This document shows positions 14,166-18,913 of a DNA stretch of 21,111 nucleotides, in pieces. This stretch comes from a virus. The notes beneath the pieces were generated by a model. The model was not told the DNA's origin, made no database searches, and worked only from the letters and a program-made list of their open reading frames with translations. Every line of letters starts with the position of its first letter. The stretch's first letter is position 1. The position numbers and the translations under genes were made by a program. The stretch spans positions 1 through 21,111 of IMG/VR virus record IMGVR_UViG_3300037839_000885; one strand, given 5' to 3'.

Positions 14166-14462
14166 ATGCTTTACGAATTTTTAATTTACCTTTCTGTTTG
14201 TCTAGGGGTAGCCTACGCTTGGAACGATACAGAAGTCACTATACCTTTCCGTAACTTTATAGCAAAAATTCCATATATTCGTAAACCTCTTCTTTGTCAT
14301 GAATGTAGTAGTTTTTGGATATCTTTTGGTATTAGTTTTTTTATTAATCCATTTTTTGAATTAACTTATCCATTTTTAAGCAACATATTTAGCGCTTTTT
14401 GTGGATTTTTTATTAATCTTTATTTTGTTAGAAATCAGTTAATAAAATATAAAGAATATTAA
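14166..14462 (+). CDS. Small membrane protein with a C-x2-C motif
   Basis: This 98-residue protein probably spans the membrane two or three times: residues about 3-18, 49-61 and 68-87 are hydrophobic and aromatic-rich. Between the first two lies a polar loop with a Lys/Arg patch, ending in KPLLCHECSSFW, where C44 and C47 are followed by W51 at the start of the second helix. Small phage and bacterial membrane proteins with a Cys-x2-Cys before a Trp-containing helix are common, but I cannot give a function. It starts directly after the stop of the previous gene. Its TAA overlaps the stop of the converging gene: the four bases TTAA at 14459-14462 serve both strands. Confidence 0.6.
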   Translation: MLYEFLIYLSVCLGVAYAWNDTEVTIPFRNFIAKIPYIRKPLLCHECSSFWISFGISFFINPFFELTYPFLSNIFSAFCGFFINLYFVRNQLIKYKEY

Positions 14463-15271
14463 TCTTTTATTTTTTTAATTCTGTCTATTAACTCAAATAG
14501 CTTGACTTTTGGTATGTCTGATATGGAAGATAGTTTATCTGCATTTTCAAATTGATCTTTTATTAGCCTTTTCTTAAGGGCTTCAAAATTAATTCCTTTT
14601 TCTTTCATTGTTTTTTCTAATACAGCTTGCGGAGAAGTTGGACTTTCGTTTGATTGAAAAGAGAAATCAAAAAGTTTCGCTTCCCCTAGTTCTTCTTGAG
14701 ATACAATATTAATTTTTAGAAAATTTCGCACGCACCTAACAAAAGCCCTATTCTCTGCAATTGCCGCCAAGAAGAATTTAGCGAAGCTCTTGGTATTATT
14801 TACTGTAGCATCAGCTAACGATTCAAATACTATCTCTCTGCCGCCTGTTTCATAATTCGGTAGCCAAGTTATTCTACAGCTTGTGGCGAAATATGTATCG
14901 TTTGCAGATACAACATTATACTCTACTTTAGAATATCCTCTGATTTGAGCAAGTTCTTTTATCCCACCTAATAGTATAAGAAGATCTTTATCTTCTAGCT
15001 TGGATACATCTGTTTCTTGGGTTTTTTGTCTATTATTAACAAGATATTCTGTTTTTACCATTTTACGCCAATTGATCGTTCCATCATCATTATAAATGTA
15101 ATTTATATTTGCATCTTCAATTAAGCCATATTTGTTTCTTGTTATTATTTTTGGTGGCACGACTTGAATGGGTAAGTCTTTATTCTCTTGTTGCGATTGT
15201 ATTGGCATATTAAAAAGTTCAGAACTGCCTACTGAAATTGTATTTTCTTCTACTTTAATTTTAGGGCTCAT
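14459..15271 (-). CDS. Candidate recombination mediator / single-strand annealing protein
   Basis: This 270-residue protein has a flexible, Gln/Pro-containing N-terminus (about residues 1-45) and a central domain (about 90-195). In that domain LLILLGGIKELAQIRGY and a beta-rich stretch are followed by SLADATVNNT and a helix containing AAIAENRAFVRCVRNFLKI. The A-E-N-R-A-x3-R-x-x-R pattern resembles the A-E-T-R-A-x-x-R-A-L helix of phage annealing and recombination-mediator families (Rad52/Sak or ERF type). A charged C-terminal helical region follows. It shares a strand with the polymerase gene, which fits DNA metabolism. Similarity is at motif level only, so an unrelated DNA-binding role is possible. 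The Shine-Dalgarno site is weak. Confidence 0.5.
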   Translation of the reverse strand: MSPKIKVEENTISVGSSELFNMPIQSQQENKDLPIQVVPPKIITRNKYGLIEDANINYIYNDDGTINWRKMVKTEYLVNNRQKTQETDVSKLEDKDLLILLGGIKELAQIRGYSKVEYNVVSANDTYFATSCRITWLPNYETGGREIVFESLADATVNNTKSFAKFFLAAIAENRAFVRCVRNFLKINIVSQEELGEAKLFDFSFQSNESPTSPQAVLEKTMKEKGINFEALKKRLIKDQFENADKLSSISDIPKVKLFELIDRIKKIKD

Positions 15272-15297: not shown

Positions 15298-16449
15298 TTA
15301 AGTCAACTTAAAAATATAAAAATTATCAACTTCTTTCCAAAAATCAGGATGATCCACTACTTTATCGCCTGTTCCATTTAACCAATCATATTTTGATCTA
15401 AACCGACCTTTTGAAGTATGCAGTATTCTAGAAGAATTATAGTAAAGATCATCAACCTCTTTTATGTTAGTGTCTTGTTTGCTCTTATGGTTTTTGTTTA
15501 TAATTAAGTTATAATCCATATAATTTAATTTATACTTACTGAGCTCCTCGTCCTTCAAGAAAGAGAGTAATACATAGTTTATTGAATTATTCTTTAACGT
15601 TTTAACAAAGTTTAAATCATTATCATGATCTATAATGTAAATTAATTGGATAATATTGCTTTTGTACTTTTTAAGTATATCTTTTTTAATAGGTTTATCT
15701 GTGAAAATTATGGATTTTTTAATTAATAAGACTTTTTCAAGAGCTTTTTCATTAAAAAGATAGTCCATTCTTATAATAGGATTTTCTATTGGAATTGAAT
15801 TCACATCCATCTCATCGTCTAGTATAACTTCAAAACTCCTATTGTTAAAATCTGGTCCAATATGTATAGTTTCTGGTAATTTAGAATGGCTTATATTTAA
15901 TAAATCTAAAATCCCTTTAGCAATTTCTTCTGGTTTTATAGTATCTATTGATTTGGGGCTTTCTACTTGAGAATATGATGGCTTTTTATTTCCAATTTTT
16001 TCGTACCCCTTTAGTAGGATATGTTTGTCTTTATTTCCAAAATGAGGACCAGCAACGTCTGGGTTACTTATACTGTAAATTGAAACTATGGGCTTATCAA
16101 AATAAGAAGCTAAATGAACAGAAAGACTATCCGCGCCGAAGTGTAAAATACTATTTTCAATAACATAAGCCAATTGATTTAGCGTCGTTTGACCAACAAT
16201 ATTAATTGTTCCATTTAAAACTTTTTCGTCTTTTATACCAACTTGTAATATATGAATATTTTCTTTTAATAAGGGGGCATGAATCAATCCAATTACTTCT
16301 TGCCAATAAGAGTAATTTCTAGAGTCATAAGGAGTTTGAGCTTGAAAAGTTATATACTTTTCTAAGGGCAAAGGAAAAAATTTAGTATAGATAAAAGGTT
16401 TGTCAATTTTTGAACCAGTATTGGTTGCATATGTATCTAAAAGCCTCAT
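15298..16449 (-). CDS. GT9-like glycosyltransferase, C-terminal lobe plus extra domain
   Basis: This 383-residue protein has the C-terminal, nucleotide-sugar-binding lobe of GT9 (heptosyltransferase-type) enzymes. Residues about 80-137 contain NIVGQTTLNQLAYVIENS, FGADSLSVHLASYFDKP and SIYSISNPDVAGPHFG, matching the usual order of Gly-Thr-Leu, Gly-x-Asp-Ser-x3-His-Leu-Ala and Gly-Pro. The matching N-terminal lobe is absent here and is found at the end of the upstream gene. Residues about 190-383 form a second domain that I do not recognise. It begins 14 bases after the upstream stop, with only AAAAGA directly before the ATG. The frame is the -1 frame of the upstream gene, so a frameshift or a split gene should be considered. 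Acceptor and sugar are unknown. Confidence 0.75.
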   Translation of the reverse strand: MRLLDTYATNTGSKIDKPFIYTKFFPLPLEKYITFQAQTPYDSRNYSYWQEVIGLIHAPLLKENIHILQVGIKDEKVLNGTINIVGQTTLNQLAYVIENSILHFGADSLSVHLASYFDKPIVSIYSISNPDVAGPHFGNKDKHILLKGYEKIGNKKPSYSQVESPKSIDTIKPEEIAKGILDLLNISHSKLPETIHIGPDFNNRSFEVILDDEMDVNSIPIENPIIRMDYLFNEKALEKVLLIKKSIIFTDKPIKKDILKKYKSNIIQLIYIIDHDNDLNFVKTLKNNSINYVLLSFLKDEELSKYKLNYMDYNLIINKNHKSKQDTNIKEVDDLYYNSSRILHTSKGRFRSKYDWLNGTGDKVVDHPDFWKEVDNFYIFKLT

Positions 16450-16463
16450 TCTTTTATTGTATA

Positions 16464-18377
16464 TTATTTGAGTTCAAAATCTATTTTATCTAAGCCATTG
16501 TGAAGATAATTTAAATTTCTTTGAGTGCAGGTATAAGGTAAATAAGCGATATCAAAGTATCCATCGTGTTGACTATTTCCTTCTAACCAAATTAAATTAT
16601 CCATAATAGGATTATACTCTATCCATCTGTGAACATAAGGGTTACCGTCTAGTATGTCTTTATACTGCGGTTTTGTAGCCACATACAAGCTATAGTCTGG
16701 ATATCTATTTTTAATAGATTTAAATAAAGCAGTACTTAAGAATATGTCTCCTGCGCTCTCTGGCATAACATATATAACTCTACCTTTATCTTTTTCATCA
16801 AGTAAATCTTCAAATTTTACTTGTTTTTTATTTTCATTTTCTTTCAAGGCGACGTTCCTAAAATAATTTTCTATATCTTGTCTTTTTGTTCCTTTAGATA
16901 ATTCTTGCATCCAATATTTGTGCCCAGAATCATTACCATCGATATTTTTCATTTTTAAAATGTTATGGTACAACTGAATCAGCCAGATCTCGTTATCTGC
17001 AATCTCTGGCATTTGATAATAAGGATCTTTTTTGTCTTCTGGATTTTCTTTTATCTTTTCCCAGTCAGCAAAGGGTTGAGAATCAATAAAGTCTTCTAGA
17101 ATTTTGCCTATGTTTTTTACTGCAAAATTATTAATTGTCCATTCTCTAGCTTTTTTACCTAACTCTCTTCTTTTGTGCTCAGGCATTTTATATACAATAT
17201 TAATTTGTTTAGCTATAGATTCTGGAGTTGTAGAAGCTTTAATAAATTCTGTTCCGTGTTCTCTATATTCGGTCCATTCTAAAGCTAATGAAGCTGCTTC
17301 TGGCTCACACATCTCTTCTCCACAAGAATAATTGGTAACTAACGTGATTAATTCTGTTAATTTTGCTTCTTGAATGGGTATCTCTTGACCTCCGCTTGTA
17401 AAAGGATGGCAGTATGTATCCATGAAATTGTATACCTCATTTAATTGAGATTCTGTTATTCCTAATCCTACATTTGTCGTTGTCTGACTCTTTTCTGCTC
17501 CACAATATTTACAGTTTAAATCTTGACCAATAAAGGGTTTAATTTCGTATTGACCACAGTTTTTACATATATATGTCGTCAATATTTCTTGAGGATTTAC
17601 TCCAATTTCTGAAGCTAACTTATGTATATTCCAACCTTCGCCCCAATGTGTATGAAACAATAAATAAGTATTCTCGATTCCTGGATTTTCTTTTTTCCAT
17701 AAAGCGTAACCTTGCAAAAGATTAGGAACACTTTTTCTTAACTGATTTCTAAACACGAATCCGATAATAAAAGCATTTTCTGGAAGATTATTATTTTTGC
17801 GAAGTTCTTTTCTCTCAAAATCTGATAATCTATAAAAATCTTTATCTTCTAAGCATCCGTGTACTGTTTTTATATGACTATAACCAAGTTTATGCAGAGC
17901 TTTTGTTGCAAAATTACTCCAGATCCAATAGTTTTTGATCTTAGTTGCATTTGTAATAGCAGATTGAAGTATAGGCAAGGAATCTAATGTCGTCCAAATA
18001 ACAGAACTAATTTTAGAAAACCATTTTTTTTCAATTGCAAAATCGACCCCCCAAATATCTTGTACAGCAAAATAGACATCTGGTTTTTCTTCATTAATTA
18101 CTCTATCTATAAAATGAGCCCCATAGCTAGCCATTCTTGCCAAGTTTGGATCTCTATTGAGTTGATCTAATTCTTGTTGATTATTAGGAAGTGAACCTAC
18201 AGATTTCCATGGGGTTTTTTTTAGCTCTGGATGATCATAAGTCATACCACAGGAGTAGTGAGTTATGTCATACTTATCTGTGGAATACAGGTACTTTAGT
18301 AAAGCTCTAGAGTTTCTACCGAAACCAGTTTTCGCTAAAGAAAAATCACTTTGAAATAAAATCTTTTTTCTTTTCAC
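16464..18377 (-). CDS. GT4-like glycosyltransferase with zinc ribbon, DUF4214-like segment and GT9 N-terminal lobe
   Basis: This is a multidomain sugar-transfer protein of 637-640 residues, numbered here from the possible TTG start at 18386; I prefer the GTG at 18377. Residues 7-30 (SLAKTGFGRNSRAL) and 205-250 fit a GT-B fold of GT4 type, with the acidic GGQEIPIQEAK block at 332-342. A four-cysteine zinc ribbon (C274, C277, C292, C295) is inserted in the second lobe. Residues about 466-512 (QLYHNILK, then YWMQELSKGTKRQDI) resemble DUF4214. Residues about 536-640 (RVIYVMPESAGDIFLSTAL) are the first lobe of a GT9 enzyme. Its second lobe is in the next gene. Upstream in-frame stops exclude a longer start. 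It overlaps or abuts the previous gene. Target is unknown: phage DNA, virion protein or host glycan are all possible. Confidence 0.8.
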   Translation of the reverse strand: MKRKKILFQSDFSLAKTGFGRNSRALLKYLYSTDKYDITHYSCGMTYDHPELKKTPWKSVGSLPNNQQELDQLNRDPNLARMASYGAHFIDRVINEEKPDVYFAVQDIWGVDFAIEKKWFSKISSVIWTTLDSLPILQSAITNATKIKNYWIWSNFATKALHKLGYSHIKTVHGCLEDKDFYRLSDFERKELRKNNNLPENAFIIGFVFRNQLRKSVPNLLQGYALWKKENPGIENTYLLFHTHWGEGWNIHKLASEIGVNPQEILTTYICKNCGQYEIKPFIGQDLNCKYCGAEKSQTTTNVGLGITESQLNEVYNFMDTYCHPFTSGGQEIPIQEAKLTELITLVTNYSCGEEMCEPEAASLALEWTEYREHGTEFIKASTTPESIAKQINIVYKMPEHKRRELGKKAREWTINNFAVKNIGKILEDFIDSQPFADWEKIKENPEDKKDPYYQMPEIADNEIWLIQLYHNILKMKNIDGNDSGHKYWMQELSKGTKRQDIENYFRNVALKENENKKQVKFEDLLDEKDKGRVIYVMPESAGDIFLSTALFKSIKNRYPDYSLYVATKPQYKDILDGNPYVHRWIEYNPIMDNLIWLEGNSQHDGYFDIAYLPYTCTQRNLNYLHNGLDKIDFELK

Positions 18378-18379
18378 GA

Positions 18380-18913
18380 TTACCAAAGTTCGCTATCTTC
18401 TTGTGGGTTATTGATCGTTTCTTTTGTTGAGTTTTTAGCTTTCTTTATCGCTTCAATTCTTTGGGTTTCAAAAACAGAATTTAAAGAATAGCTTAAAAAC
18501 TCTCTTAAAAGTCTAGCTTCGTTAAAGTAAAAACCAATTAAATAAGACTGTTTGTTTTCTATATTTTGCTTATCTTCTTTATGAACACTATAAGAAAAAC
18601 CGACTTGTTTTTCTTCCCTAATATAAGGAGACAACTTAATCTTAGTAATTTGTTTTTCTGAGTTATGATAAGCAGAAAACTCTGTATTTCTTTCTATTGA
18701 GTCAAGAATTCCAGCTGCTTCTGTTAATGAAAATTTGATTTTAACGCTTTTATTTGGACTATTTTGATTTTCTGAAAATGAACCTATTTTTTTTGATTCA
18801 TTCCAAGAGCTTTGTTTTATGAGTGAGCCCCATACAGAGTTATCTTTTGAATTTACGCTAAAACTACAAGCTGTGCCTGTATTTTTACTATTTGGTTTAT
18901 AGAATGATATCAT
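18380..18913 (-). CDS. Unrecognised 177-residue protein, possibly ssDNA-binding
   Basis: I do not recognise the family. The core (residues about 56-140) is beta-rich and bounded by helices: VKIKFSLTEAAGILDSIE, three or four strands through VGFSYSVHKED, then YLIGFYFNEARLLREFL. It is followed by a basic helix (RIEAIKKAKN) and an acidic tail ending in an aromatic residue (QEDSELW). A basic or beta core with a short acidic tail and terminal aromatic is typical of phage single-stranded-DNA-binding proteins, such as that of T7. The gene lies directly downstream of the DNA polymerase gene. Both points suggest replication, but this is inference, and a Whirly- or PC4-like nucleic-acid-binding fold is an alternative. 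AAAGGA lies only 2 bases before the ATG. Confidence 0.55.
   Translation of the reverse strand: MISFYKPNSKNTGTACSFSVNSKDNSVWGSLIKQSSWNESKKIGSFSENQNSPNKSVKIKFSLTEAAGILDSIERNTEFSAYHNSEKQITKIKLSPYIREEKQVGFSYSVHKEDKQNIENKQSYLIGFYFNEARLLREFLSYSLNSVFETQRIEAIKKAKNSTKETINNPQEDSELW

Follow-up and report, generated by a model that had tools for sequence, protein, structure and literature searches.

Glycosyltransferases of the GT-B type can be encoded as two separate lobes. In the MurG lineage, Alg14/Alg13 and EpsE/EpsF are enzymes that are split into an N-lobe protein and a C-lobe protein (PMC8993221, PMC4973528). For the GT9 family, the catalytic residues of heptosyltransferase I (WaaC) are D13, K192, and D261, with D13 acting as the catalytic base (PMC5713226). 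We analyzed a 21,111-base fragment from an uncultured virus (the window is this whole stretch) that contains two neighboring genes, here called A and B. Based on sequence comparisons and structure prediction, A and B very likely encode a single GT-B glycosyltransferase of the GT9 type in two halves, each made as a separate protein.

Genes A and B are on the minus strand (Table 1), between a lambda-like tail module (tape measure, minor tail proteins, tail assembly protein, and central fibre J) and a gene for DNA polymerase III alpha. Among relatives, the order upstream neighbor-A-B-downstream neighbor was almost invariant. Neither of the two flanking genes had a significant match in Pfam or PHROG. 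The adjacency to the polymerase gene is a weak hint of a replication-linked target, such as DNA.

Table 1. Features of the A/B locus in the window and, where a locus is named, in relatives
Feature	Position	Strand	Remarks
Upstream neighbor of A	18380..18913	-	conserved; adjoins A in 126 of 132 loci reaching that far
Gene A, 637 aa: GT4, DUF4214-like helical linker, GT9 N-terminal lobe	16464..18377	-	GTG start 18377; alternative start TTG 18386; stop at 16464
GT4 (GT-B) module of A, about residues 1-440	17058..18377	-	profile and AF2/Foldseek
Zinc-ribbon-like insertion in the GT4 module, C271, C274, C289, C292	17502..17567	-	invariant alignment columns
DUF4214-like helical segment, A residues 465-502	16872..16985	-	PF13946 E 0.043 (weak); helices in model
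GT9 N-terminal lobe, A residues 531-637	16467..16787	-	family profiles, alignments, predicted fold
A Asp544, equivalent of WaaC D13	16746..16748	-	150 of 150 aligned sequences
Gap from A stop codon to B ATG, 14 nt	16450..16463	-	spacing not conserved among relatives
Gene B, 383 aa: GT9 C-terminal lobe and C-terminal domain	15298..16449	-	ATG start 16449
GT9 donor-binding (C) lobe, B residues 1-185	15895..16449	-	
B Arg44, likely equivalent of WaaC K192 by position	16318..16320	-	K/R in 145 of 150
B Asp107, likely equivalent of WaaC D261	16129..16131	-	
B His112, GT9 DS...H motif	16114..16116	-	
C-terminal domain of B, residues 186-383 (198 aa)	15301..15894	-	
Downstream neighbor of B	14459..15271	-	conserved; adjoins B in 138 of 144 loci reaching that far
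Anp1-like gene between the halves	L076:7910-8551		also in L040, L082-L084, L087, L088, L092, L220, L267
DUF6165 gene between the halves	L097:7917-8294, L107:7919-8296, L232:5354-5761		

The larger part of A is predicted to be a complete GT-B fold of the GT4 type. A matched the PHROG 2170 glycosyltransferase profile (E 5.6e-10), and PF00534 matched residues 301-413 with 25.7 bits, slightly below its cut-off of 26.4. In addition, an AF2 model of A alone resembled GT4-type structures in a Foldseek search (E 3e-17; TM normalized to the target, 0.77). The four-cysteine insertion in this module may bind zinc. In a tblastn search of cultured phages, the GT4 part of A weakly matched Synechococcus phage KJ410740. 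The same type of search with both GT9 lobes gave nothing useful, and a search of plasmids gave no match.

We found that A ends in a GT9 N-lobe and B begins with a GT9 C-lobe, with the same models matched at complementary ends. The first-pass annotation had noted this likeness from the sequence by itself, and it was confirmed by the matches to TIGR02195 (heptosyltransferase II, NCBIfam): residues 534-587 of A aligned with model positions 2-55 of 339 (E 0.013, a weak match), and residues 76-183 of B with positions 233-337 (E 8e-7). The match that is weak in A becomes solid in single-chain homologues (below) and in a stand-alone paralogue, the N-half of which matched positions 1-56 of TIGR02193 (E 4e-6) and the C-half positions 241-299. 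B also matched the Pfam GT9 family, PF01075 (E 2.4e-7; profile positions 165-232 of 247), scoring 30.8 bits against a curated cut-off of 22, and this match was present in 28 of 31 family members. The C-terminus of A is too short and divergent for a Pfam match. A tail profile compared to PDB sequences gave GT9 matches that were all sub-threshold. The first approximately 29 residues of B complete the N-lobe/linker region of the GT9 fold. Beyond its lobe, B has a C-terminal domain that is fast evolving, yet under purifying selection, and that has a high-confidence predicted structure and no match in Pfam or PHROG.

The split between A and B is a stable state that has been retained through long evolution in a large group of uncultured tailed phages. 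We scanned viral contigs for relatives (main scans of 48, 80, 80, 80, and 79 loci, and one scan with 387 stretches encoding a relative of B). Both parts were present in 311 of 325 loci. There were no fused close relatives among these 311 loci or in four MAG contigs examined in full, all four of which kept the split. Removal of identical pairs left 150 distinct A/B pairs, and recurrence in this many distinct pairs indicates that the split is not due to chance. Both halves are under strong purifying selection: dN/dS was about 0.03-0.09 on both lobes in comparisons of the window to ten relatives. In two contigs, a B homologue has no adjacent A and is behind a gene resembling that for dCMP deaminase (L304:4998-6200 and L300:4181-5383). 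The contig of L304, 136 kb long, showed no A lobe.

The residues expected in a GT9 active site are divided between the two proteins. The equivalents of D13, K192, and D261 of WaaC would sit on different chains: D544 on A, and D107 and probably R44 on B. The lobe of A is a GT9 N-lobe with the catalytic Asp. All four motif residues, G543 and D544 of A and D107 and H112 of B, were present in 132 of the 150 pairs. In one clade (L110-L124; 10 pairs), the donor-site Asp and His of B were lost, and the Gly beside D544 of A was also changed in all 10 pairs. These pairs are possibly non-catalytic, having probably lost activity. Two further clades had changed the Gly beside D544, and one of them had also lost the Asp of B. 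The coupled change in A and B, which amounts to about two events on the tree, fits one active site common to two chains.

Structure prediction also points to a single GT-B fold formed by the lobes of A and B. In five relatives with a short junction, A and B are in the same frame with one stop codon between them. We read this stop as a residue, for prediction only, to obtain a single chain (alignment of 91 rows). The AF2 model of the read-through chain had a pLDDT of 93.4 and a pTM of 0.91 and was poor only at the junction, although the tether between halves given as one chain helps them to dock. The best 30 PDB matches of this fold were all GT9 and included 3tov, WaaF (1psw), WaaC (2h1h), and TibC, with E values from 2e-13 to 4e-8, alignments over whole targets, and target TM scores of 0.49-0.62. 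The top matches aligned over 349-361 columns to targets of 331-348 residues. A single lobe could hardly exceed a TM of 0.5, and the values for WaaF, WaaC, and 3tov (0.59-0.62) are above that. The RMSD between the read-through model and crystal structures of GT9 enzymes was 5.4-7.3 Å, so the orientation of the lobes is uncertain. When A was modeled alone, the complete GT4 was followed by a trailing half-domain with a confidence of about 76-90, compared to 95-98 with B present. Because the alignments of the two models differ, this comparison is only supportive.

It is possible that the half-lobes have been repurposed singly, without rebuilding a GT9 enzyme. For example, the lobe of A could be a docking module for the GT4 and the lobe of B a sensor of sugar nucleotides. 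The extra domain on B, the loss of donor-site residues in L110-L124, and the few contigs with B and no nearby A would all suit such separate roles. We consider these roles improbable, because all four motif residues are kept in most pairs, A and B are almost always adjacent, and the half-pair has been duplicated as a pair. Three contig groups (L322, L323/L324, and L325) have a bare pair, consisting of an N-lobe gene of 119 aa and a C-lobe gene of 182-184 aa. In L331, the N-lobe is inside a somewhat longer ORF. The bare half-genes overlap by 14 nt and adjoin a separate GT4 gene, and the active-site motifs are intact in both halves. Two phages with a bare pair also have the canonical A-B pair next to the polymerase gene, indicating that the half-genes were duplicated together. 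In 14 long phage contigs of the A/B clade, no further GT9 was found.

We also considered that programmed -1 frameshifting or read-through of the stop codon might fuse A and B into a single protein. A -1 frameshift was among the explanations offered in the first-pass annotation, and the window itself is compatible with it: the two genes are in different frames with a -1 relation, and the open stretch in the frame of B begins at a TGA that is a few codons ahead of the stop of A. In addition, 93 of the 150 pairs have a short open overlap of 1-82 nt. However, the relation between the frames is not conserved. The relative frame was 0 in 9 pairs, 1 in 70, and 2 in 71, and it changed about 24 times on the tree of pairs. 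The distance from stop to start ranged from -17 to +15 nt or, with an insert, from 192 to 683 nt. One or more whole genes lie between the halves in 28 pairs, and in 29 further pairs a stop in the frame of B after the end of the A coding sequence blocks entry. That is, the path from A into B is closed in 57 of the 150 pairs. Furthermore, B starts at its own ATG in 147 pairs, and by eye there is no canonical X_XXY_YYZ heptamer in the overlap in the window. Joining of the two chains during translation is therefore very improbable, and the frameshift proposed earlier does not hold.

Two types of gene were the most frequent inserts among these 28 pairs. One encodes an Anp1-like transferase (GT-A type, about 213 aa; PF03452, E 1.6e-9) and lies exactly between the half-genes; its insertion corresponds to about five changes on the tree. 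The other, in other relatives, encodes a DUF6165 protein of about 125-135 aa (E 1.9e-12). Short inserts between the half-genes were seen in L164 (192-nt gap) and L221 (205-nt gap). We considered an intron between the halves and rejected it: Rfam detected none in six insert loci, and the inserted genes are intact and have Pfam matches themselves.

Homologues with both parts in one protein, which the first-pass annotation had suggested looking for, were found in more distant phages. In these phages, a single ORF of about 640-700 aa encodes a GT4 together with a complete GT9 (ten loci, L345-L354, with nine distinct proteins). One of these proteins matched the lobe of A by BLASTP (33% over 55 residues, E 2e-9) and also aligned with the GT4 part of A. 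Residues 406-475 of the single chain align with the lobe of A (hhalign to A, up to residue 475 of the single chain, E 2.6e-13), and residues 490-670 correspond to residues 3-184 of B (hhalign, E 1.4e-11). These alignments place the natural cut no more than about 15 residues from the A/B boundary. In the simplest history, a single-chain GT4-GT9 protein of this type probably underwent fission into A and B, a direction that is inferred and unrooted. Although such single-chain proteins might also suggest that A and B are one gene broken by an indel, through an assembly error or as a pseudogene, this earlier suggestion is hardly credible: the same split recurs across many contigs (about 150 distinct pairs, with four relatives at 95-96% identity among them), and dN/dS is well below 1 for both halves.

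Sequence, conservation, and structure prediction all support the proposal, also made in the first-pass annotation, that two chains form one active site across the lobes of a GT-B fold, presumably by assembly in trans. In this split GT9 enzyme, A would supply the acceptor-side N-lobe with the catalytic D544, behind a complete GT4, and B would supply the sugar-nucleotide-binding C-lobe (K/R44, D107, and H112) followed by the extra domain. In most relatives, A and B follow each other stop-to-start as one operon, and their products are therefore probably made together. They would then probably dock and close the active-site cleft, and the GT9 enzyme would be obligately two-chain. A complex of A and B would have both a GT4 site and a GT9 site and could attach two sugars one after the other. 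A more speculative extension, which we regard as unlikely, is that an obligate multi-site machine (the GT4, the split GT9, and sometimes the Anp1-like transferase) assembles an oligosaccharide on the DNA of the phage or on a different target linked to replication, and that the split lets the phage regulate or swap the donor half of the GT9.

Alongside the split enzymes of the MurG lineage, this case in GT9, with its bare two-half version and its single-chain relatives, suggests that the boundary between GT-B lobes is a repeatable point of fission. With genes A and B, it can be tested how two chains form a transferase site and why the split is maintained in phages. These genes also serve as a warning for annotation pipelines, to which A would look like a truncated GT4/GT9 gene and B like an orphan piece of a GT9.

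The GT9 heptosyltransferases WaaC, WaaF, and TibC have the same fold as A/B and are its best structural matches, and they share with A/B the N-lobe GD...T motif, which holds the catalytic Asp, and the C-lobe DS....H motif. In contrast to A/B, these enzymes are one polypeptide of about 320-350 aa, whereas A/B is encoded by two genes that join the N-lobe half to a GT4 and the C-lobe half to a new domain. The single-chain phage proteins (L345-L354, 640-685 aa) have the same order as A/B (GT4, GT9 N-lobe, C-lobe), but in one ORF, and the DUF4214-like linker and the extra C-terminal domain were not seen in them. The T4 alpha and beta DNA glucosyltransferases and other phage DNA-modifying transferases are, like A/B, phage-encoded and GT-B. 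Those enzymes belong to other families and are single chains; A and B are near a DNA polymerase gene. A limited literature search gave no account of a split GT9 or of a phage pair like A/B.

The closest parallel to the split is in Alg14/Alg13 and EpsE/EpsF, which are also cut between the GT-B lobes and also have known single-chain relatives. Those pairs are of the MurG lineage, cellular, and without a GT4 module, whereas A/B is GT9, from phages, and has a GT4 module; Alg14, in addition, is a membrane anchor. Homology of A/B to MurG (GT28) was not found: the best 30 structural matches were GT9, as were the Pfam and NCBIfam matches of B. Splitting between the lobes of GT-B enzymes is known from the MurG lineage, and the split in GT9 is a second and separate case that is widespread in uncultured phages.
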